Origin: Alphaproteobacteria bacterium
Lineage (GTDB): Bacteria; Pseudomonadota; Alphaproteobacteria; CAAHEQ01; UBA3637
Length of the DNA stretch: 32,907 bases
Assembly (NCBI GenBank): GCA_017533325.1
Contig: JAFXIF010000005.1
Coordinates: forward strand, 1-32,907
Direction: 5' to 3'
The notes under the pieces were generated by a model, which saw nothing but the letters and a program-made list of their open reading frames with translations, did not search any database and was not told the DNA's origin. Made by a program: the position numbers and the translations under genes. Positions 4,730 to 29,895 of this stretch are shown here, piece after piece. The first letter of the stretch is position 1; every line of letters begins with the position of its first letter.

Positions 4730-6055
4730 ATGGCCTATTCCATGAATGAAACGATTTACGCTCTTTCTTCCGGTGCCGGTAAAGGCGGGGTTGCCGTTAT
4801 CAGGCTGTCCGGTGCCGAGGCGTTAACTGTTTTTAAAAGTATGACAAAAATTGAAAATCCAAAACCTCGTTACGCTTATTTTTCAAAACTTGTTAATCAA
4901 GAAGGAATTGAAATTGATCAAGCTCTTTGCCTTTATTTTAAAGGTCCAAATAGTTTCACCGGTGAAGATACGGTTGAATTTCAAGTGCATGGTGGGCAAG
5001 GAGTCATTTCTGCTGTTTTTAAAGCTTTATCACGATTTAAAAATTTGCGTCCGGCAGAAGCTGGTGAATTTTCAAGACGAGCGGTGGTTTATGGTAAAAT
5101 GGATTTAACTGCTGCTGAAGGTTTAATGGATTTAATTGATGCTCAAACCGAATTGCAACGAAAACAAGCCTTATCTCAAATGCAAGGAGTTTTGGGTTCG
5201 TTATATGAAAATTGGCGCAAAGCCTTAATTCATGATATGGCATACCTTGAAGCTTTTATTGATTTTCCGGAAGAGGATATTCCCCTTGAAAAAATGCAAG
5301 TGATTGACAAAGGAATTCAAGAATTAATTAAAAAAATTGAAGTCCATTTATCGGATAATCAAAAGGGCGAGCGATTAAGAAACGGATTTCAAATTGCTAT
5401 TATCGGAGAACCGAATGTCGGTAAATCCTCTCTTATAAATTTACTTTCAAAAAGAGATGTTGCTATTGTGTCTGATATTGCAGGGACAACAAGAGATGTT
5501 GTTGAAAGTTATTTGGATATTGATGGATTTCCGGTTTGTTTGGCCGATACGGCGGGTCTTCGCGAAAGCTTAGAAGCAATTGAAGCTGAAGGGATTAAAC
5601 GAGCTGTAAGAAAAGCCTAATCATCGGATTTGATTTTGCATATTTTGGATATTGCTTCTTATCCGAACAAAGAACCATTACCTAAAGAGCTTGAAAATAT
5701 ACCGGTTATTACCGTTTGGAATAAGATTGATATTATCCATAAAAAACCACAAAACGGTGAAATTTTTATGAGTGCTAAAACAAAGGAAGGGTTTGACGAA
5801 TTGCAAACGGCCATTTCTTCCTTTTTGAAAGAAAATTTTTCACCGGATAGCAATGGCGCGATTACGCGTGAAAGATATCGTGTGGCTTTACAAGATTGTT
5901 TAAGGTCATTAAAAAGCGCTTTATTGGCACCTGAGATAGAACTAAAGGCTGAAGATTTACGCTTAAGTGCGAGAGCATTGGGACGGATTGTCGGTAAAAT
6001 TGAAACGGATGAACTTTTAGATGTTGTATTCCGTGATTTTTGCATTGGGAAATAG
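4730..6055 (+). pseudogene. mnmE: tRNA modification GTPase MnmE, interrupted by in-frame TAA
   Basis: MnmE works with MnmG and FAD to place the 5-(carboxymethyl)aminomethyl group on wobble uridine 34 of certain tRNAs. Read through the stop, the frame gives about 441 residues, the usual length. In order there is an N-terminal folate-binding domain (TIYALSSGAGKGGVAVIRLSG), the inserted G domain (G1 GEPNVGKSS, G2 AGTTRDVV, G3 DTAGLRE, G4 NKID) and the helical C terminus ending FRDFCIGK. A TAA at 5618-5620 splits it after residue 296. A product stopped there lacks G4, G5 and the catalytic-Cys tail. The frame is otherwise unbroken and well conserved, so the lesion is recent, a sequence error, or read through. 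ATG 4730 could be replaced by ATG 4742, which gives the classical MNETIYA start. Confidence 0.88.
5618..5620 (+). other. In-frame stop codon inside mnmE
   Basis: This TAA lies between RAVRKA and SSDLILHILD in a single continuous frame, where homologues carry a sense codon. One base change (from GAA, CAA or AAA) would account for it. The downstream part has no ribosome binding site at its first possible start, a TTG at 5630. Confidence 0.9.
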
Positions 6056-6081
6056 ATTTATTTAAGAAATAAATAAAAATA

Positions 6082-6110
6082 TTGACATAATACCCCTTTT
6101 GTGCTACTAT
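6082..6110 (+). promoter_or_regulatory. Promoter of ankyrin gene
   Basis: TTGACA (6082-6087), 17 bp, TACTAT (6105-6110). The start of transcription would fall at about 6117, exactly where the leader hairpin begins. Confidence 0.65.
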
Positions 6111-6116
6111 AAAAGT

Positions 6117-6158
6117 GCCCGTTTTTTTTGGAGGAAGGAAAAGCGGGCCTGTTTTTTT
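6117..6158 (+). terminator. Leader hairpin with U-tract (attenuator or mnmE terminator)
   Basis: GCCCG (6117-6121) pairs with CGGGC (6144-6148). The stem can extend through a T-run (6122-6129) pairing with AAGGAAAA, and CTGTTTTTTT follows to 6158. It lies between the promoter at 6082-6110 and the ankyrin start codon, so it could act as a transcription attenuator. It could equally end mnmE transcripts. Confidence 0.6.
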
Positions 6159-6182
6159 AATTGGCATAAGGAGTTTTTTTAT

Positions 6183-6911
6183 ATGTCTTTTTTAAAAGAA
6201 AATATCGAACAGGGATTTTGGAAAGCCGTTTCACAAGGAAATGATGGTGCAGTTCGGATGTTTTTGGAGAGAATACCTGAGATCCGTCCGAACATTAATA
6301 ATCTTAATCCTCATAATAATTGGTCCAGCTTATTTGTGGCGGTTTATGAAGGACATACAAAAGTTGTTAAAACATTGTTGGATTGGGGAGCACACATTGA
6401 TCAACCTTGTGCTTTTAATGAAACACCATTGCAATTGGCCGCCTCTATGGGGCATATTGAAATTATGAAACTCTTTTTGCAAAAAAAAGATACAATTAAT
6501 TTAAATGGGTGTAATCACCGAGGGAGAACGGCTCTTCATGGGGCGGTTTTAAAGGATACTGGTATAACGGAGCTTTTGATTGAAGCTGGTGCTGATTTAA
6601 ATGTGAAAGAAAACTCTTGGGGACAAACGCCATTGCATCAGGCGGTGTCGTTTAATAATATAAATGCGGTAAAAGCGCTTCTTCAAGCAGGGGCGGATAA
6701 AACTGTAAGGGATAATAAAAATAGAACACCACTTGATATGATTGAAGACTTTTTTAAAGAAGAGGATAAAGAGACTCTTCGCCAACTTTTCAATGAGTAT
6801 CCCAAAAAAGAAAACGAAGGGGTGCATACTAAAAAAGTGATAAGTAAACAACAAAACAAACCTTCTTTTTGGAGGCTACTTGTGCGTTCTTTTTCCTATA
6901 CCAAAAATTGA
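6183..6911 (+). CDS. Ankyrin-repeat protein
   Basis: This 242-residue protein is mostly ankyrin repeats, which form protein-binding surfaces. Repeats are visible at about residues 46-75 (NNWSSLFVAVYEGHTKVVKT), 79-110 (NETPLQLAASMGHIEIMKLF), 114-142 (GRTALHGAV then LLIEAGADLN) and 147-177 (GQTPLHQAVSFNNINAVKAL). Degenerate flanking repeats lie at about 10-38 and from 181. The C-terminal tail (about 205-242) is basic and ends in an aromatic/Arg-rich segment. No signal peptide is seen. The ATG at 6183 has AAGGAG nine bases upstream; an earlier GTG at 6099 in frame would lie within the promoter. Ankyrin proteins are often effectors in host-associated bacteria, but secretion is not shown here. Confidence 0.9.
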   Translation: MSFLKENIEQGFWKAVSQGNDGAVRMFLERIPEIRPNINNLNPHNNWSSLFVAVYEGHTKVVKTLLDWGAHIDQPCAFNETPLQLAASMGHIEIMKLFLQKKDTINLNGCNHRGRTALHGAVLKDTGITELLIEAGADLNVKENSWGQTPLHQAVSFNNINAVKALLQAGADKTVRDNKNRTPLDMIEDFFKEEDKETLRQLFNEYPKKENEGVHTKKVISKQQNKPSFWRLLVRSFSYTKN

Positions 6912-9626: not shown

Positions 9627-11201
9627 ATGAAAAAGTCACATTTGTTTTTATTCACAGCCTTAAGTTTTTGTTTTGTTTTAACAACGGGAAAATCTCTTCA
9701 GGCAACAGAAGTGAAAGCTCCTGAAAAAAATAAAGCCGAAGCAAAAAAAACAATAGAAGTTCCTGTGTATACAAAGGATGATGTGATTTTTCAACAGCCA
9801 TTTATGTTGAAAAAAGCAGATAAGACTCCTGTAAACGGTATTTTGCAACGAACCTATCCGAATGGGAAAATAGAGGCAAAAGCATTCTTTTTTAACGGGT
9901 TGCCTCATGGTGAAAGCGTTACATTCTATGAAAACGGTCAAACAAAAACAATTGAAAAATATAATCAAGGCCGTTTGCATGGTAAATCTGTTTCTTACTA
10001 TGATAATGGTAAAATATTAAATGAATCCTATTTTAACATGGGGTTACCTGAAGGTTTATCAAAAATTTATTATCAAAGTGGCAGTGTTCAATATGCAACA
10101 ATGTATAAAAACGGGAAACGCAACGGTGAAGATAAAGCATATTTTGATGGGGATAAGTTACAACGTGTGCGTGTTTATACCGATGGACATTTGGACGGCG
10201 AAGTAAAGGAATATTATGAAAACGGAAAGTTAAAAGGGGAAGGGGTCTTTAAAAAAGAGGGGCCTGAAGGATTGGTTAAAACCTATTATGAAAATGGGAA
10301 ATTGCGCACGGAAGAAAGTTATAAATCAGGAAAGAAAAACGGTTTTTCAAAATCTTATTATGATTTTGGGCAATTAATGCAAGAAGAAGAATATAAAGAT
10401 GATTTGTTGACAGGTGTTTCTAAAACCTATTATGAGGATGGGTCAATTGAAAAAGAAGTTTTCTATAAAGATGGACGTCAACATGGAACGGCAAAAGTCT
10501 TTTATAATACCGGTCAATTAAAACTTGAAGGTAATTATATTGATGATAAAATTGAAGGGAAACTCATCACTTATTATTTAGATGGGAATGTTCAATCAAG
10601 TGTTGAAATGAAAAAGGGTGTTTTAGATGGTAAGCTTGTTGAATATTATGAAAACGGGCAAGTTGCACTTGAAAAAAATTATAAAAACGGTTCAGAAGAA
10701 GGTGCAGTTATTGCCTATTATCCGACTGGAAAGGTTAAAATGACAACTCTTTTTAAATCGGGTAAAAAAGAAGGTGAGTTTTCAAATTATTATGAAGATG
10801 GAACGTTAAGCACAAGAACTATGTTTAAAAATGATGTCCCTCACGGTGAATTTAAACAATATTTCCCCAATGGGAAAATTAATGTTGAAGGTTTTTATGA
10901 AAATGGGAAATTAACCGGAAAACAAACAATTTATTATAATAATGGTGTTGTTCAAAGTATTGATTTTTATAAAAATGATAAATTAGATGGTGAAAGTAAA
11001 ACATTCTTTGATAATGGCATCTTAAGAAGCGTTTCTTTATTTAAAGATGGTAAAAAAGATGGTGTTGCCAAAATTTATGATGAAGAAGGGACTCTTATTT
11101 TAGATATGGAATTTAAAATGGATGAATTGATTCAAGCAAAAACAAAGAAAATTTTGGAAGAAGAGGCAAAAAAAGCTCAGTCTGGGCAACAGGTTAAATA
11201 A
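9627..11201 (+). CDS. Exported MORN_2 (YwqK-type) repeat protein
   Basis: This 524-residue protein starts with a signal peptide (MKKSHLFLFTALSFCFVLTT, cleavage probably after SLQA near residue 27). A Lys/Glu-rich linker follows. From about residue 65 to 500 it is a run of about 18 repeats of 24 residues with the pattern G-x3-x-YYxNGxLxxExxYKxGKxxG, for example GEVKEYYENGKLKGEGVFKK. This is the MORN_2 variant seen in YwqK-like proteins, which form elongated beta structures. The C-terminal 25 residues are Lys/Glu-rich. AGAGGA precedes the ATG. The protein is probably periplasmic or surface-located; its ligand is unknown. The family label 'antitoxin' sometimes given to YwqK-like proteins has no support here, as no partner toxin is seen. 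Confidence 0.9.
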   Translation: MKKSHLFLFTALSFCFVLTTGKSLQATEVKAPEKNKAEAKKTIEVPVYTKDDVIFQQPFMLKKADKTPVNGILQRTYPNGKIEAKAFFFNGLPHGESVTFYENGQTKTIEKYNQGRLHGKSVSYYDNGKILNESYFNMGLPEGLSKIYYQSGSVQYATMYKNGKRNGEDKAYFDGDKLQRVRVYTDGHLDGEVKEYYENGKLKGEGVFKKEGPEGLVKTYYENGKLRTEESYKSGKKNGFSKSYYDFGQLMQEEEYKDDLLTGVSKTYYEDGSIEKEVFYKDGRQHGTAKVFYNTGQLKLEGNYIDDKIEGKLITYYLDGNVQSSVEMKKGVLDGKLVEYYENGQVALEKNYKNGSEEGAVIAYYPTGKVKMTTLFKSGKKEGEFSNYYEDGTLSTRTMFKNDVPHGEFKQYFPNGKINVEGFYENGKLTGKQTIYYNNGVVQSIDFYKNDKLDGESKTFFDNGILRSVSLFKDGKKDGVAKIYDEEGTLILDMEFKMDELIQAKTKKILEEEAKKAQSGQQVK

Positions 11202-18326: not shown

Positions 18327-19133
18327 TTAATAAAATTTTACATAGTCTTTATTTCTTATAACAGAACGATATTGCCAACCATAAATAACGCTGGGATATA
18401 AGCTTTCGCGTTCAATGTGGGGGCCGTTATATCTGGCCATGTGATCTAAAAATGCATCTTCTCGTTGAGTAAACATACCCTCACTGGCGCCAGGTATGTA
18501 TTTTCTGATTAATTTCGGATTTTTTTCAACGCGAAGAGCCATTCGAATTAATTCTTTTGAAAAGCAGAGAGTGGGTCCAGTTAAATCGGTGAAATTTTTT
18601 CGAAGTTGTGTGTGAGAGATATCTTCTGTTAAAATCAATCCCCAATGATATGCTGTTGAAGAGATTCGTTGTTCTTCTTTTGACAGATGGGATAAACTTT
18701 GATTTAATTCTTCTAAATAATCAGGAGCATACCAGTCGTCATCGTCAATTTTGCAAAAATAATCATAATTATTAATGTCAAGATGTCTGACGGTATCTAA
18801 TAAGTTAGAAAGTTGTTTGCCGTTATGGTCAAAACGGATGAAAACTTTGCCTGTTTTTTTCAATTCTTCAAATTCTCTTGAAAAGGTAGAGGCAAAGCCA
18901 TAATCATTCGGGCTTCCTTTAATTGAAACACTGATATCAAAGTTTTGATAGGATTGGTTAAGAAGTCTGTAAATTTGACCGGAAAGAAAAATGGGACGTT
19001 TAAAAGAAGAAAGCATTAATAAATACTTGTATTTCTTTTGAAAAAATTGGGTTTGCGGTGGAACAAAAAAGCTTGCGAAAGCAAAACAAGTTAAGCAAAA
19101 TAAAAGGGATAGTTTTAAGATGAGTTTGTTCAT
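18327..19133 (-). CDS. Membrane-anchored GT2-like glycosyltransferase
   Basis: This 268-residue protein has an N-terminal hydrophobic segment (LILKLSLLFCLTCFAFASFF) and then a GT-A fold. YKYLLMLSSFKRPIFLSGQI gives the first nucleotide-binding strand with the SFKRP turn, and FDISVSIKGSPNDYG follows. YFCKIDDDDWYAPDYLEELN is the metal-binding DXD region (about residue 127). The C-terminal half includes TLCFSKELIRMAL and GMFTQREDAFLDH, where the acidic ED could be catalytic. The sugar donor is unknown. It lies 11 bases downstream of slyX on the same strand and shares its promoter. Together with the GT6 genes it may modify surface glycans. Confidence 0.8.
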   Translation of the reverse strand: MNKLILKLSLLFCLTCFAFASFFVPPQTQFFQKKYKYLLMLSSFKRPIFLSGQIYRLLNQSYQNFDISVSIKGSPNDYGFASTFSREFEELKKTGKVFIRFDHNGKQLSNLLDTVRHLDINNYDYFCKIDDDDWYAPDYLEELNQSLSHLSKEEQRISSTAYHWGLILTEDISHTQLRKNFTDLTGPTLCFSKELIRMALRVEKNPKLIRKYIPGASEGMFTQREDAFLDHMARYNGPHIERESLYPSVIYGWQYRSVIRNKDYVKFY

Positions 19134-20112: not shown

Positions 20113-20141
20113 AAACCGCTTCTTCGGAGGCGGTTTTTTTT
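20113..20141 (+). terminator. Terminator of rpmI-rplT
   Basis: AAACCGCTTC (20113-20122), TTCG tetraloop, GAGGCGGTTT (20127-20136), then a T-run. Confidence 0.93.
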
Positions 20142-20287: not shown

Positions 20288-22204
20288 ATGAAAAAAATAT
20301 TATTTGGTTTGATTCTTTTTGTTGTGTTAAGCATTTTTTTTATTTCCTTGCCACGTGAAAAAACAGAAGAGATTTATGTTGATATAAGAGGGTGGTCTGA
20401 ACCTTTTCAATATTATCCAAAATCTAAAAAGTTAAAGGGAGAAAATGATAATTTTAATGTTTTAAAAAGAACAAAAAATGCATTCTCAATCCAACAAGAA
20501 AATGAATTGAATCTTTATTATCGTCTTCATTATACAGAAGATGAATATGAGTTATTATCAAAATCACAATTGCTTGATGAAAAAAATAAAAAAATTGCAG
20601 TTTTGACTTTTAGTTTGGATTCAGACGAATCAAAATGGAAAAATTTTTATGAAACAATGGAAAATAATTTTTTACCCAATCATTCGAAAAATTATTTTGT
20701 TTTCACAAATAGCCATGAATTAAAGGTTGAAGATAATGTGTTAAAAATAGCACAATATGATATAAGAGCTGAAACTTTAACCTTGAAAAAATTTCATATT
20801 TTTGACAAAGTCAAACATCTTTTAAAATTATTTGATTATGTCTATTTCGTTGATATGGAATTTCTTGCAAAATCACCTGTTCATGAAGAAATTTTGCCGA
20901 CAAGAGAGCAAGGATTCGTTACTGTTTTACACCCTTGTTATTATGACTGGAAAGAGGGTGGGTTTCCTTATGAAAAAAATGAACACTCAAAGGCCTATGT
21001 CCCATCTAGGGAGGGGAAATTTTATGTGCAAAACTCTTTTTTCGGAGGAACTAAAGATGACTTTTTTGAATTAACGGATACGATAAAAAAATGGGTTGAT
21101 TGGGATTTAAAAAAAGACATTAGAGCTCCTTTAGCTGATGAAAGTTTTTTAAATAAATATGTTTTTTTGAAAATGAGACAATTTGAAGAGCCGTTGATTT
21201 TGTTGCCGGAATTTCTTCCTATTGATAATTTTTGCGCTATGAAAGAAGAAAAAAAGATTGACCCTGATGAAATAGTTTTGTTTGAAAACGGGCAAAATCA
21301 AATTTATAAATTTGATTCAAAAACATCTGTTTTAAAAGGAGAAAATAAGGATTTGCCTGTTGCAAGACGAACGTTAAGCACGATTTCAATTCCAAACGAA
21401 AAAGGGGTAACCGTTTATCATCGGGTTTATTATTCAAAAAATGAATATGAACCGTTGACAAGTTCTCAAGTTGTATCTGAAACTCCCAAAAATATAGCCA
21501 TTATAACATTTGTGGATAAAAATAATGTTTCTGAATGGAATAAATTTTATCAAACGTCAAAGGGTAATTTTTTACCAAATCACCAAAAGAAATATTTTGT
21601 GTTTACGAACCAAAAAAAATTGAAAGTTCCTACACGCGATGTGAAAAAAATTCTGATGGGGATTAATGATTTTGAATTAAAAAAATTTCATCTTATTAAC
21701 AAGATAAAAGATGAATTATCCTCATTTGATTATGTTTACTTTATGGATGCAAATATTGATGTTGTAACAAAAATTGGAAATGAAGTTTTACCGACGCCAT
21801 GGCAAGAAATGGTATATGCCATACATCCATGGCATTATCGTTGGCCGGTTAAAAATTTTCCTTATGAACGTAATTATGAATCCGAAGCTTATATTCAAGA
21901 TTTAGATGGTAAATTTTACGTCGAAAATGCCTTTTTTGGCGGAAATAAAGACTCATTTTTAAATTTGGCACAGACGATTCAGAAATGGATTGATTTTGAT
22001 TTAAAAAGGGATATTGTTCCCCAATGGAAGGATGAAAGTTATATAAATAAATATTTGGTTGAAAGACAAAAAGAAGCGAAAAAACCTTTGATTTTAACTC
22101 CTGAATACGTTTATCCAAGTGTTAAATGTGATATTTCAAGTGAATTTAAACCATATAAAAAAATGATTTTAAAAACAATAGTAAAGGATTCTAAATCAAA
22201 ATAA
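20288..22204 (+). CDS. Tandem-fused double GT6 glycosyltransferase (ABO-like)
   Basis: This 638-residue protein has an N-terminal membrane anchor (residues 4-21) and then two copies of the same unit. Each unit is a module of about 75 residues (about 28-100 and 328-399) followed by a GT6 domain (about 102-310 and 401-610). GT6 includes the ABO blood-group and alpha-1,3-galactosyl enzymes. Shared blocks are FLPNH with KYFVFTN, DYVYF, HPWHYRWP, FPYERNYESEAYI, GKFYVENAFFGG and DESYINKYL. The catalytic Glu is kept (E285, E583). The DXD site is altered: D189-M-E191 in copy 1 and D487-A-N489 in copy 2. ATG 20288 is preferred over TTG 20282 because AGG lies upstream. Sugar donor and acceptor are unknown. 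Confidence 0.88.
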   Translation: MKKILFGLILFVVLSIFFISLPREKTEEIYVDIRGWSEPFQYYPKSKKLKGENDNFNVLKRTKNAFSIQQENELNLYYRLHYTEDEYELLSKSQLLDEKNKKIAVLTFSLDSDESKWKNFYETMENNFLPNHSKNYFVFTNSHELKVEDNVLKIAQYDIRAETLTLKKFHIFDKVKHLLKLFDYVYFVDMEFLAKSPVHEEILPTREQGFVTVLHPCYYDWKEGGFPYEKNEHSKAYVPSREGKFYVQNSFFGGTKDDFFELTDTIKKWVDWDLKKDIRAPLADESFLNKYVFLKMRQFEEPLILLPEFLPIDNFCAMKEEKKIDPDEIVLFENGQNQIYKFDSKTSVLKGENKDLPVARRTLSTISIPNEKGVTVYHRVYYSKNEYEPLTSSQVVSETPKNIAIITFVDKNNVSEWNKFYQTSKGNFLPNHQKKYFVFTNQKKLKVPTRDVKKILMGINDFELKKFHLINKIKDELSSFDYVYFMDANIDVVTKIGNEVLPTPWQEMVYAIHPWHYRWPVKNFPYERNYESEAYIQDLDGKFYVENAFFGGNKDSFLNLAQTIQKWIDFDLKRDIVPQWKDESYINKYLVERQKEAKKPLILTPEYVYPSVKCDISSEFKPYKKMILKTIVKDSKSK

Positions 22205-22275: not shown

Positions 22276-22303
22276 TAAACAAAAGAAAATGAAAGGATTT
22301 ATA

Positions 22304-23809
22304 ATGTTTCAAGGATTAGCTGACAGATTATCAAAAGCTTTTGATAAATTAACAAAACGTGGGATTTTAACAGAAACAGCCGTTGAAGAAACAATGCGTG
22401 AAATCAAAATTGCGCTTTTAGAGGCGGATGTTGCATTGCCGGTTGTGAAAACTTTTATTCAAAAAGTAAAAGAAAAGGCTGTTGGTGAACAAGTTGTTAA
22501 ATCAATTTCTCCTTCACAAATGGTGGTTAAAATCGTTCATGATGAATTGGTTCAATTATTGGGAACATCTTCTGCGTTGAATTTAGTTGATTATCAACAA
22601 AATGTTATTTTGATGGTCGGGCTTCAAGGTTCCGGAAAAACCTCTTCTTCAGCAAAATTAGCAAGACGATTGAAAAAAGAGGGTAAAAAAGTTTTGTTGG
22701 CAAGTTTGGATACATATCGTCCGGCCGCTCAAGAACAATTAACGGAATTAGGCGAAAAAAATGATTTACCGGTTTTGCCGATTATAAAAAAAGAAAATCC
22801 GATTGAAATAACAAAAAGAGCCTTAAAAACTGCAAAAGAAGAGCTTTATGATGTCTTAATTTTAGATACAGCCGGCCGTTTGCATATCGATGATGAAATG
22901 ATGCTTGAAGTTCAAAAAATCAGAGATCTTTCAAATCCGAAAGAAACGCTTTTGGTTGTTGACTCTTTGATGGGGCAAGATGCTGTTACTGTTGCAAAAG
23001 AATTTAATGAAAAAATCGGTGTTACCGGTCTTATTTTAACCAGAATTGACGGGGATTCCAGAGGTGGTGCCGCTCTTTCTATGCGAGAAGTGACCGGCGT
23101 TCCTATTCAATATTTGGGGGTTGGCGAAAAGGCTGAAGCTTTAGAAGTTTTTGATGCTAATCGTATTGCCGAGCGGATTTTGGGGATGGGAGATGTTGTC
23201 GGTCTTGTTGAAACGGCAATGGAAAAAATTAATCAAGAAGAAGCGATGAACACGGCTGAACGAATGATGAGCGGTCGGTTTGATTTGAATGATATGCTTT
23301 CTCAAATGCGCCAAATTTCCAATATGGGGGATATTAAAGGCGTGATGAAAATGATACCGGGTTTGAGCAAAATGCAAGATAAAATTGAAGCTGCCGGTAT
23401 TGATAACAAAATGATTTTGCGCCAACAGGCAATTATTCTTTCAATGACTGAGAAAGAACGCAAAAATCCGGATATTTTAAAAGCCGCCAGAAAAATCAGA
23501 ATTGCAAACGGTGCCGGTGTGAGTGTCAATGATGTGAACAGGCTATTAAAACAATATGAACAAATGGCCGGTGTGATGAAAAAGATGAAAAAAATGAACC
23601 CGTTTGGGATGATGGGAATGCTTAAAAAAATGGGTGGAATGTCTGCGTTAAAAGGGATGATGGGTGGTTCCTCAATGCCGGATATGAGTGCCCTGCAAGG
23701 GATGATGGGAAAAAATAAAATGCCGGATATGAGTGAATTAAACCGCCTGATGAGTCAATCGGGTGCACCGGATATGAAAGCGCTTCAAGAAATGTTGAAG
23801 AAAAAATAA
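22304..23809 (+). CDS. ffh: Signal recognition particle protein Ffh
   Basis: This 501-residue SRP54-type GTPase binds signal sequences of nascent membrane proteins and delivers them with FtsY. Order: N domain (1-85), G domain with G1 GLQGSGKTSSSAKLA (106-120), then DTYRPAAQEQL, DTAGRLHID and TRIDGDSRGGAAL. The Met-rich M domain (about 310-430) contains the RNA-binding helix-turn-helix (ILSMTEKERKNPDILKAARK, then RIANGAGVSVNDVNRLLKQY). A Met/Gly/Lys-rich tail of about 70 residues follows. I chose ATG 22304 because AAAGGA lies seven bases upstream and the protein then starts MFQGLADRLS as usual; ATG 22289 overlaps that site. The usual rpsP-rimM-trmD neighbours are absent. Confidence 0.97.
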   Translation: MFQGLADRLSKAFDKLTKRGILTETAVEETMREIKIALLEADVALPVVKTFIQKVKEKAVGEQVVKSISPSQMVVKIVHDELVQLLGTSSALNLVDYQQNVILMVGLQGSGKTSSSAKLARRLKKEGKKVLLASLDTYRPAAQEQLTELGEKNDLPVLPIIKKENPIEITKRALKTAKEELYDVLILDTAGRLHIDDEMMLEVQKIRDLSNPKETLLVVDSLMGQDAVTVAKEFNEKIGVTGLILTRIDGDSRGGAALSMREVTGVPIQYLGVGEKAEALEVFDANRIAERILGMGDVVGLVETAMEKINQEEAMNTAERMMSGRFDLNDMLSQMRQISNMGDIKGVMKMIPGLSKMQDKIEAAGIDNKMILRQQAIILSMTEKERKNPDILKAARKIRIANGAGVSVNDVNRLLKQYEQMAGVMKKMKKMNPFGMMGMLKKMGGMSALKGMMGGSSMPDMSALQGMMGKNKMPDMSELNRLMSQSGAPDMKALQEMLKKK

Positions 23810-28806: not shown

Positions 28807-29895
28807 ATGAAAAAAGGGGTTTTGTTTTATTCAGCGGTTATTTTTTTGCCGTTTTTAGCAATTATTATTTGTTTGCAATGGTTGCTTGTTTCGCCTTATG
28901 AACCGATTTATCTCTTTGAAAAAGGAAAGCTTAAATCATATATTTGGGATAAAAAAACGGATATTTTGGTTCCTCAATTAAATGTAGCCGAAACTTATTT
29001 AAAAATGCCTGTTCTTCGAAAAACGGATAAAACAATTTCCGTTGCCTCTATTGATGGATATAAACAATATTTATATGATAAGAATTTGTCAACATATAGA
29101 CTGGTTCAAGAATCCAAAGTGAAATATACAACCCCTAAAAACATTGCCGTTCTTTATATCGCAACCGGAAAATATATAGTGTTTTGGGAGAATTTTTATA
29201 AGCAAACGGAAAAATACTTTTTACCCCGTCACAAAAAGACATATTTTTTGTTTACGGATCATGATGATTTAAAGGTTCCTGAAAATGTGGTGAAAATTCA
29301 TCAAGATCAATTGCCTTGGCCGTATGTGACTTTTAAACGGTTCCATTTTTTTGAAGGAATTGAAAAGGAACTTAAAAAGTTTGATTATGTTTATTTCCTA
29401 AATGGAACAATGTTGCCCACAAAAGAAATTCATGAAGAAATTTTCCCAACACCAGAACAACAAATTATGGTGACGTTGCATCCTTCTTTTTGGTCGGCTA
29501 AAAACAAGCGATTCCCTTATGATCGAAATCCAAAATCTAAAGCATATATCCCAAACGGTCAAGGTGTTCATTATTTTATGGGTGGATTTAATGGAGGAAC
29601 TGCAGAAGGATTTTTAAAGCTTATTAAAACTTGTCGTAAATGGTCTGACATTGATATGAAAAATAATCAAATGCCAGCTTGGCATGATGAGTCTATGTTA
29701 AATTCTTATATTTTAAAGGAAATTTATGAACGGGGGGGGTATCCTTTGATCCTCTTTCCTGAATATGCGATACCACAAGATTCGGGTGGTTGGGGCTTGG
29801 ATGAATTGTATCCGTATGAAAAAATGATTATTATAAATAAACAAAAACATGGTGGTCATGCTTTTTTAAGAGGGCAGAGTGATGACAAAAAATAA
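28807..29895 (+). CDS. GT6 glycosyltransferase (ABO-like), single domain
   Basis: This 362-residue protein has an N-terminal membrane anchor (about residues 5-28), then the same accessory module as in the fused gene at 20288 (about 33-108), then one GT6 domain (about 111-325). GT6 blocks are NFYKQTEKYFLPRHKKTYFL, FTDHDDLKVP, LPWPYVTFKRFHFF, DYVYFLNGTML, LHPSFW, FPYDRNPKSKAYIPN, YFMGGFNGG and WHDESMLNSYI (catalytic Glu295). The DXD site reads N199-G-T201. The C-terminal tail (DELYPYEKMIIINKQKHGGH) resembles the end of the fused protein. ATG 28807 follows GGGA by six bases; a TTG at 28795 is the alternative. Products may be alpha-linked Gal or GalNAc on surface glycans, by family analogy only. 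Confidence 0.88.
   Translation: MKKGVLFYSAVIFLPFLAIIICLQWLLVSPYEPIYLFEKGKLKSYIWDKKTDILVPQLNVAETYLKMPVLRKTDKTISVASIDGYKQYLYDKNLSTYRLVQESKVKYTTPKNIAVLYIATGKYIVFWENFYKQTEKYFLPRHKKTYFLFTDHDDLKVPENVVKIHQDQLPWPYVTFKRFHFFEGIEKELKKFDYVYFLNGTMLPTKEIHEEIFPTPEQQIMVTLHPSFWSAKNKRFPYDRNPKSKAYIPNGQGVHYFMGGFNGGTAEGFLKLIKTCRKWSDIDMKNNQMPAWHDESMLNSYILKEIYERGGYPLILFPEYAIPQDSGGWGLDELYPYEKMIIINKQKHGGHAFLRGQSDDKK

Follow-up and report, generated by a model that had tools for sequence, protein, structure and literature searches.

A tandem GT6 protein with eroded donor sites in gut Alphaproteobacteria

We describe a protein of 638 residues (dGT6) in which two GT6 glycosyltransferase domains follow each other in one chain, both having lost most of the residues that contact the UDP-sugar donor. 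Its gene lies in a window of 32,907 nucleotides (the whole stretch of DNA analysed) from a 1.44 Mb metagenome genome of an alphaproteobacterium. It is conserved in a second species, known from a yak rectum genome (G005), and both of its domains are under purifying selection. We think, with a probability of about one half, that dGT6 is a tandem pseudo-GT6, exported and membrane-anchored, whose role is either to bind glycans or to assist the intact single GT6s found in the same organism. The more general proposal, that an ABO-type fold was duplicated and exported and gave up its UDP-sugar chemistry for a glycan-binding or enzyme-assisting role, is put forward tentatively.

Two GT6 domains in one chain

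The dGT6 frame runs from an ATG at 20288 to a stop codon at 22202-22204 and is uninterrupted over 638 residues (Table 1). The profile PF03414 matches the whole protein twice above its curated cut-off (171 bits, E 3e-50). Each half is also matched when scanned alone, the first at residues 98-295 with 85.7 bits (E 3e-24) and the second with 97.8 bits (E 7e-28), against a cut-off of 25. The NCBIfam model NF041524 ('family 6 glucosyltransferase') likewise matches two stretches, with 312 bits against a cut-off of 250. No competing glycosyltransferase family was found for either half, and a phmmer search of solved structures returned BoGT6a as the top match of both (E about 1e-29), with the ABO transferases ranking behind it.

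Table 1. Features of the window discussed in the text
Feature	Position	Strand	Basis
Tandem GT6 gene (dGT6), 638 aa	20288..22204	+	Open frame; two PF03414 matches; orthologue in G005
N-terminal hydrophobic helix (signal anchor or signal peptide), residues 2-20	20291..20347	+	Hydropathy; helix in model
First beta stem module, residues 29-94	20372..20569	+	AlphaFold2 strands; aligns with second stem and single-GT6 stems
D1, first GT6 domain, residues 98-305; donor site more eroded	20579..21202	+	PF03414 E 3e-24; residue map
Second beta stem module, residues 328-394	21269..21469	+	AlphaFold2 strands; pLDDT 79 alone
D2, second GT6 domain, residues 402-628	21491..22171	+	PF03414 E 7e-28; Z 31.7 to BoGT6a; residue map
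Single-domain anchored GT6, complete donor site	28807..29895	+	PF03414 E 5e-29; BoGT6a E 1e-50, contacts kept
Terminator-like hairpin between rplT and dGT6	20113..20136	+	Consensus scan
ffh, conserved neighbour in G000 (source genome) and G005	22289..23809	+	90% identity to G005 copy; same order

An AlphaFold2 model of dGT6, built from an 18-row alignment, has a mean pLDDT of 84 and contains two GT-A domains. Its elements follow in the order helix, beta module, GT-A (residues 102-305), beta module and GT-A, with the remaining boundaries as in Table 1; the relative placement of the domains is unreliable (pTM 0.56). The nearest solved structures found by Foldseek with this model are BoGT6a and then the ABO transferases. 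D2, which alone was aligned structurally with BoGT6a, superposes on it with a Z of 31.7 and 1.4 Å over 222 residues. From the domain order in the model, the repeated unit is a stem together with a GT6 domain. The first stem can be aligned with the second, and both with the stems of single GT6s from the same organisms; the second keeps a pLDDT of 79 when modelled alone. Against solved folds, Foldseek gave no match for the stem at E 0.001, and the best Z (5.6) lies within the range of chance arrangements.

An earlier note on this DNA, made from its letters, had proposed two full GT6 domains in one chain, each with a set of conserved sequence blocks and the catalytic Glu. Both proposals stand: PF03414 is found in each half, the model contains two GT-A folds, and the blocks and the Glu are present in both halves. 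GT6 is the best family for D1 and for D2, which disposes of an assignment to some other family. The loss of donor residues, the beta module of each copy, the N-terminal helix and the additional GT6 of the window had gone unmentioned there.

The chain begins with MKK, followed by a hydrophobic helix with a hydropathy of 2.79 over 19 residues, which is also present in the model. A hydrophobic N-terminal helix after positive residues is what is expected of a signal anchor, with an orientation that is predicted, and by the positive-inside rule dGT6 would be exported outside the inner membrane. Anchors were called here by simple hydropathy alone. Such a helix is found in nearly all GT6s of this order that have a complete N-terminus, several of them resembling cleavable signal peptides, and it is absent from the tested GT6s of Akkermansia, Olivibacter, Lachnospiraceae and Paraflavisolibacter. 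If the intact GT6s are also exported, this raises the question of how UDP-sugars are supplied outside the cytoplasm.

Donor-site residues

Table 2 of PMC3961637 lists which BoGT6a residues touch UDP-GalNAc or its products, at the uracil, the diphosphate or the GalNAc. We mapped them by a MAFFT alignment onto the four domains of the two double proteins and onto 27 single GT6s, from this order, Akkermansia, Olivibacter, Lachnospiraceae, a Clostridiales bin and Bacteroides. Thr10, Tyr13, Arg73, Asn95 and His190 are identical in every single GT6 that covers them, and Trp66, Lys231 and Arg243 are identical in most. All of the first five, together with Arg243, are changed in each of the four double-protein domains. 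Thr10 becomes L/D/M/V, Tyr13 becomes D/N/D/E and His190 becomes A/K/E/K, while Arg73 is uniformly Lys and Asn95 uniformly Asp. Trp66 is lost, and the C-terminal GGHxxLR lid (His239/Arg243) is absent. In BoGT6a a single lid residue, Lys231, accounts for more than 200-fold in kcat. D1 has no counterpart of it, and for D2 its presence is uncertain; the D2 copy in G005 does have a Lys in that column.

This loss is concentrated at the donor site. Across the 45 columns conserved at 90% or more in the 27 single GT6s, the double-protein domains keep 14 of 44 contact cells against 103 of 136 cells elsewhere (Fisher p 3e-7, for cells that are not independent and domains that are related; p 0.014 in a column-wise test). 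Pairwise alignments to three references repeat the pattern. Erosion has gone further in D1, which lacks Trp189 and, in G005, has Ser in place of Asp191. The donor site of D2 is also eroded but retains Asp191, Glu192 and Trp189. Other features persist: all four domains retain the catalytic Glu192, His122, the DES-x-x-NKY block and the fold core, three retain Asp191 and both D2s retain Trp189. Trp128 is newly fixed in all four. In the human ABO enzymes, Arg188 and Asp302 bind the donor galactose (PMC4692239). Our alignment places Arg188 at Arg73, and Asp302 corresponds to Asp191, so these positions matter beyond the bacterial branch.

Judged by sequence, both halves and the orthologue have thus lost or altered most of the UDP-sugar contacts expected of a competent GT6, and the chain does not appear to hold two competent active sites. 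This weakens the function suggested in the earlier note, a bifunctional or processive enzyme. Such an enzyme would add two alpha-linked sugars of the Gal/GalNAc type, from UDP donors, to a surface glycan. Two PF03414 domains, a catalytic Glu in each and the presence of galE and GDP-fucose genes in the genome would all suit it. However, it needs two working donor sites, whereas the donor-contact residues are lost in both domains and both species and the lid is absent, and we regard it as improbable.

Conservation, origin and genomic setting

Among ten genomes of the genus, G005 (RGIG9879) encodes the same two-domain protein, with 640 residues and 51% identity, and in both genomes the gene lies directly upstream of ffh. 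Since an independent genome has the same architecture, an assembly artefact joining two genes, a possibility raised in the earlier note, is ruled out for the two-domain frame.

The frame is intact in both species (638-640 codons). Between them dN is about 0.38 and dS about 1.09 (NG86, with dS near saturation), which gives a dN/dS of about 0.35, similar in D1, D2 and both stems. Both domains are therefore under purifying selection, and dGT6 is maintained despite the lost donor site. It diverges faster than other genes compared between the two genomes, with 51% identity against 90% for ffh, 58% for a GT6 on another contig of the source genome (C20) and 91% for the single GT6 of the window. This fast divergence and the loss of site residues are what one would expect of a duplicated GT6 whose function is disappearing with no new one to replace it. 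Nevertheless, intact codons in both species, the dN/dS in each domain and stem, and the uniformity of Glu192, His122, Trp128 and Lys73 in four domains make a gene in decay very improbable.

In a tree of 32 GT6 cores, D1 groups with D1 of G005 (99/93) and D2 with D2 of G005 (100/99), and a moderately supported branch (91/71) places all four domains together on the same side. On these sequences, the simplest history would be one in-frame duplication predating the split of the two species. A related genome (G002) carries two separate adjacent GT6 genes near ffh. Because they lie on the opposite side of ffh and form their own pair in the tree, fusion of such a pair was rejected as the direct source of dGT6, and G002 serves only as a model for that step. 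A phage origin was also rejected, as the phage matches listed cover at most 66% of the query, at 26-33% identity, and none reaches 80%. On viral contigs, 22 loci matched as single GT6 domains, judged by the reported ranges.

Of the order's 43 genomes, which form one family, 17 (about 40%) have a PF03414 match, as against none of about 380 other Alphaproteobacteria sampled, so that acquisition of GT6 from outside is likely. The named relatives include gut bins of yak, roe deer, sheep and rabbit ('Lapin'). Looking for the double layout elsewhere, as the earlier note had advised, we found it in 2 of these 43 genomes and, among the sampled genomes, in this order only. It was absent from the same sample of about 380 other Alphaproteobacteria (by PF03414), from a sample of 395 genomes of the class of Olivibacter (3 of which had any GT6 match), and from the sampled 7 other GT6-bearing genomes and genome-contig GT6 loci besides that of G005.

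Other members of the order carry different fusions. In one genome (G041; L054:888-2573, the same record as L036 and L088) a single chain of 561 residues joins GT11 (PF01531, E 1e-31) to GT6 (PF03414, E 7e-26), with an N-terminal hydrophobic helix and an intact GT6 donor site. Of its close copies, one (G042, L058) comprises the start only, at a contig end, and another (G003, L055) has a broken frame (501 + 112 aa). GT11 is the alpha-1,2-fucosyltransferase family. In human A/B antigen synthesis, H is made first and A or B afterwards. The GT11-GT6 chain suits this order of reactions far better than a double GT6, and the G041 protein is a candidate for making a blood-group A/B-like epitope in a single chain. 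A further anchored chain of the same order (L099:2123-4744, 874 aa) combines GT10, GT11 and a degenerate GT6-like domain, which shares the changes of Tyr13 to Asp and Asn95 to Asp with the tandem protein. Two Akkermansia GT6s (L083:2393-4750 and L084:2384-4744) are about 786 residues long, their N-terminal 500 or so residues having no Pfam match above cut-off. A search of the open literature for fused GT6-GT11 proteins, inactive GT6s or gut Alphaproteobacteria of this kind found nothing relevant.

Within the window, the single GT6 downstream has NGT where BoGT6a has its NXN motif and, judging from its sequence, is a possible active partner of dGT6. No sigma-70 promoter was found upstream of dGT6 at the scan threshold. 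Between 20092 and 20288, rplT is followed by dGT6, whereas in G005 and G002 it is followed by pheS/pheT-like genes; this junction is either a rearrangement or a contig misjoin. Beside rplT, 18327-19133 on the minus strand is a small glycosyltransferase-like gene with an N-terminal hydrophobic stretch; its GT2 match is weak and falls below cut-off. An intact copy is present in G005, together with two similar open reading frames in a row, and G002 has one copy. The window also encodes a 524-residue repeat protein with a signal-peptide-like start (9627-11201), whose match to NF033566 (LIC20035 family adhesin) is below cut-off, and an ankyrin-repeat protein confirmed by Pfam (6099-6911). Two further ankyrin-repeat proteins, judged by eye, lie near the C20 GT6 (L153:1033-3183 and 4878-6230). 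Elsewhere the source genome carries galE, adjacent gmd and fcl-like GDP-fucose genes and a NeuB-family gene, the fcl and NeuB matches falling below the NCBIfam cut-offs. A PF04488 (glycosyltransferase-sugar-binding) gene with an N-terminal hydrophobic helix (L155:4685-9042, contig C1) adjoins gmd and the GDP-L-fucose-synthase-like gene, with the NeuB-family gene nearby. A search for an ATP/ADP translocase, a sign of intracellular life, gave no match, and the control likewise gave none.

Function and comparison with known systems

A fold kept under selection around a donor pocket that has gone points to a pseudoenzyme. The lost residues suggest that dGT6 has no catalytic activity, and the retained acceptor-side residues, with the newly fixed Trp128, suggest glycan binding. 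We hypothesize that a GT6 gene of the neighbouring type, with signal anchor, beta stem and GT6 domain, was duplicated in frame and that the second copy then lost its anchor. The UDP-sugar pocket and the C-terminal lid would have disappeared at about the same stage, probably in the ancestor that the two copies share. Both domains would be held outside the inner membrane and would most likely bind glycan chains through the retained acceptor side, consisting of His122, Glu192 and the HPxxYxW loop with Trp128. The protein could thus bind glycans at the cell surface or in the periplasm or, alternatively, serve the two intact GT6s (that of the window and that of C20) as a non-catalytic partner. A caution comes from BoGT6a, whose affinity for its acceptor is weak when UDP is absent (Kd 1.2 mM): a GT6 fold with an empty donor site need not make a good lectin.

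The main rival is a transferase with a changed donor, in which D2, and perhaps D1, would be catalytic with a different donor or binding mode. Asp95, Lys73, Asp191 and Glu192 would then form a re-tuned site, and D1 would be acceptor-binding or structural. The retention of Glu192, His122 and DES-x-x-NKY in all four domains, of Asp191 in three and of Trp189 in both D2s could indicate a live active site. The uniform Lys73 and Asp95 could reflect re-tuning and not decay, and the purifying selection agrees with this. Moreover, if dGT6 is exported, it would have no access to cytoplasmic UDP-sugars, and another donor would be sensible. The Lys at the Lys231 column of G005 D2 also speaks against a pseudo-GT6, a reading drawn from two orthologues. 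On the other hand, each copy has its own replacements of Thr10, Tyr13, Trp66 and the lid, a pattern that resembles relaxed constraint rather than a new shared pocket, and we know of no GT6 that uses another donor class. On balance, a changed donor is possible but rather unlikely, and we prefer the tandem pseudo-GT6.

The ABO, alpha-Gal and Forssman epitopes, against which people carry natural antibodies, are products of GT6 enzymes, and GT6-bearing gut bacteria are of interest for this reason. A donor-less tandem GT6 in two species would, if true, represent a pseudoenzyme branch of the GT6 family, and would show that a protein annotated as GT6-like here does not necessarily make an antigen. 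The broader context may be more important: an order of herbivore-gut bacteria has gathered anchored transferases of the blood-group type, nearly all GT6s bearing a Golgi-enzyme-like N-terminal anchor and some being fused to GT11 or to GT10 and GT11. Here the GT11-GT6 fusion with its intact GT6 site would be the direct candidate for an enzyme that builds an epitope of the blood-group A/B type in one chain, and host-antigen mimicry by this fusion and by the single GT6s of the order is possible.

Among known systems, dGT6 shares with BoGT6a of Bacteroides ovatus (PDB 4ayj, 4cj8, 4cjb) the GT6 family, the GT-A fold and the HP, YExxxxSxAYI, GG and DES-x-x-NKY motifs. Unlike dGT6, BoGT6a is single-domain, has no N-terminal anchor, and keeps its NXN motif and a complete UDP-GalNAc site with the C-terminal lid. 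The dGT6 halves, 28-32% identical to it, have DxE, DxN or DxS in place of NXN and have lost the site. The single anchored GT6s of the order (that of the window, that of C20 and the G002 pair) are closer, with the same anchor, stem and GT6 domain and 35-43% core identity, but their donor site is complete. Vertebrate GT6s also consist of an N-terminal transmembrane helix, a stem and a GT6 domain (PMC3961637). This layout of ABO and alpha-1,3-galactosyltransferase, found in nearly all GT6s of the order, is likely convergent, since the bacterial sequences are closer to BoGT6a. The vertebrate enzymes differ in having a single catalytic domain, a DXD motif and Mn2+. The two domains of LARGE belong to different glycosyltransferase families and are both active. 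Like dGT6, LARGE1/2 carry two tandem GT-A domains in one chain (PMC7185993). The dGT6 copies, by contrast, are both GT6 and both look non-standard. Inactive glycosyltransferase homologues of the COSMC type, which are eukaryotic, keep the fold without the donor chemistry and help an active paralogue. Although they belong to an unrelated family, dGT6 resembles them in keeping a glycosyltransferase fold without donor chemistry, and by analogy it may have a similar helper role.
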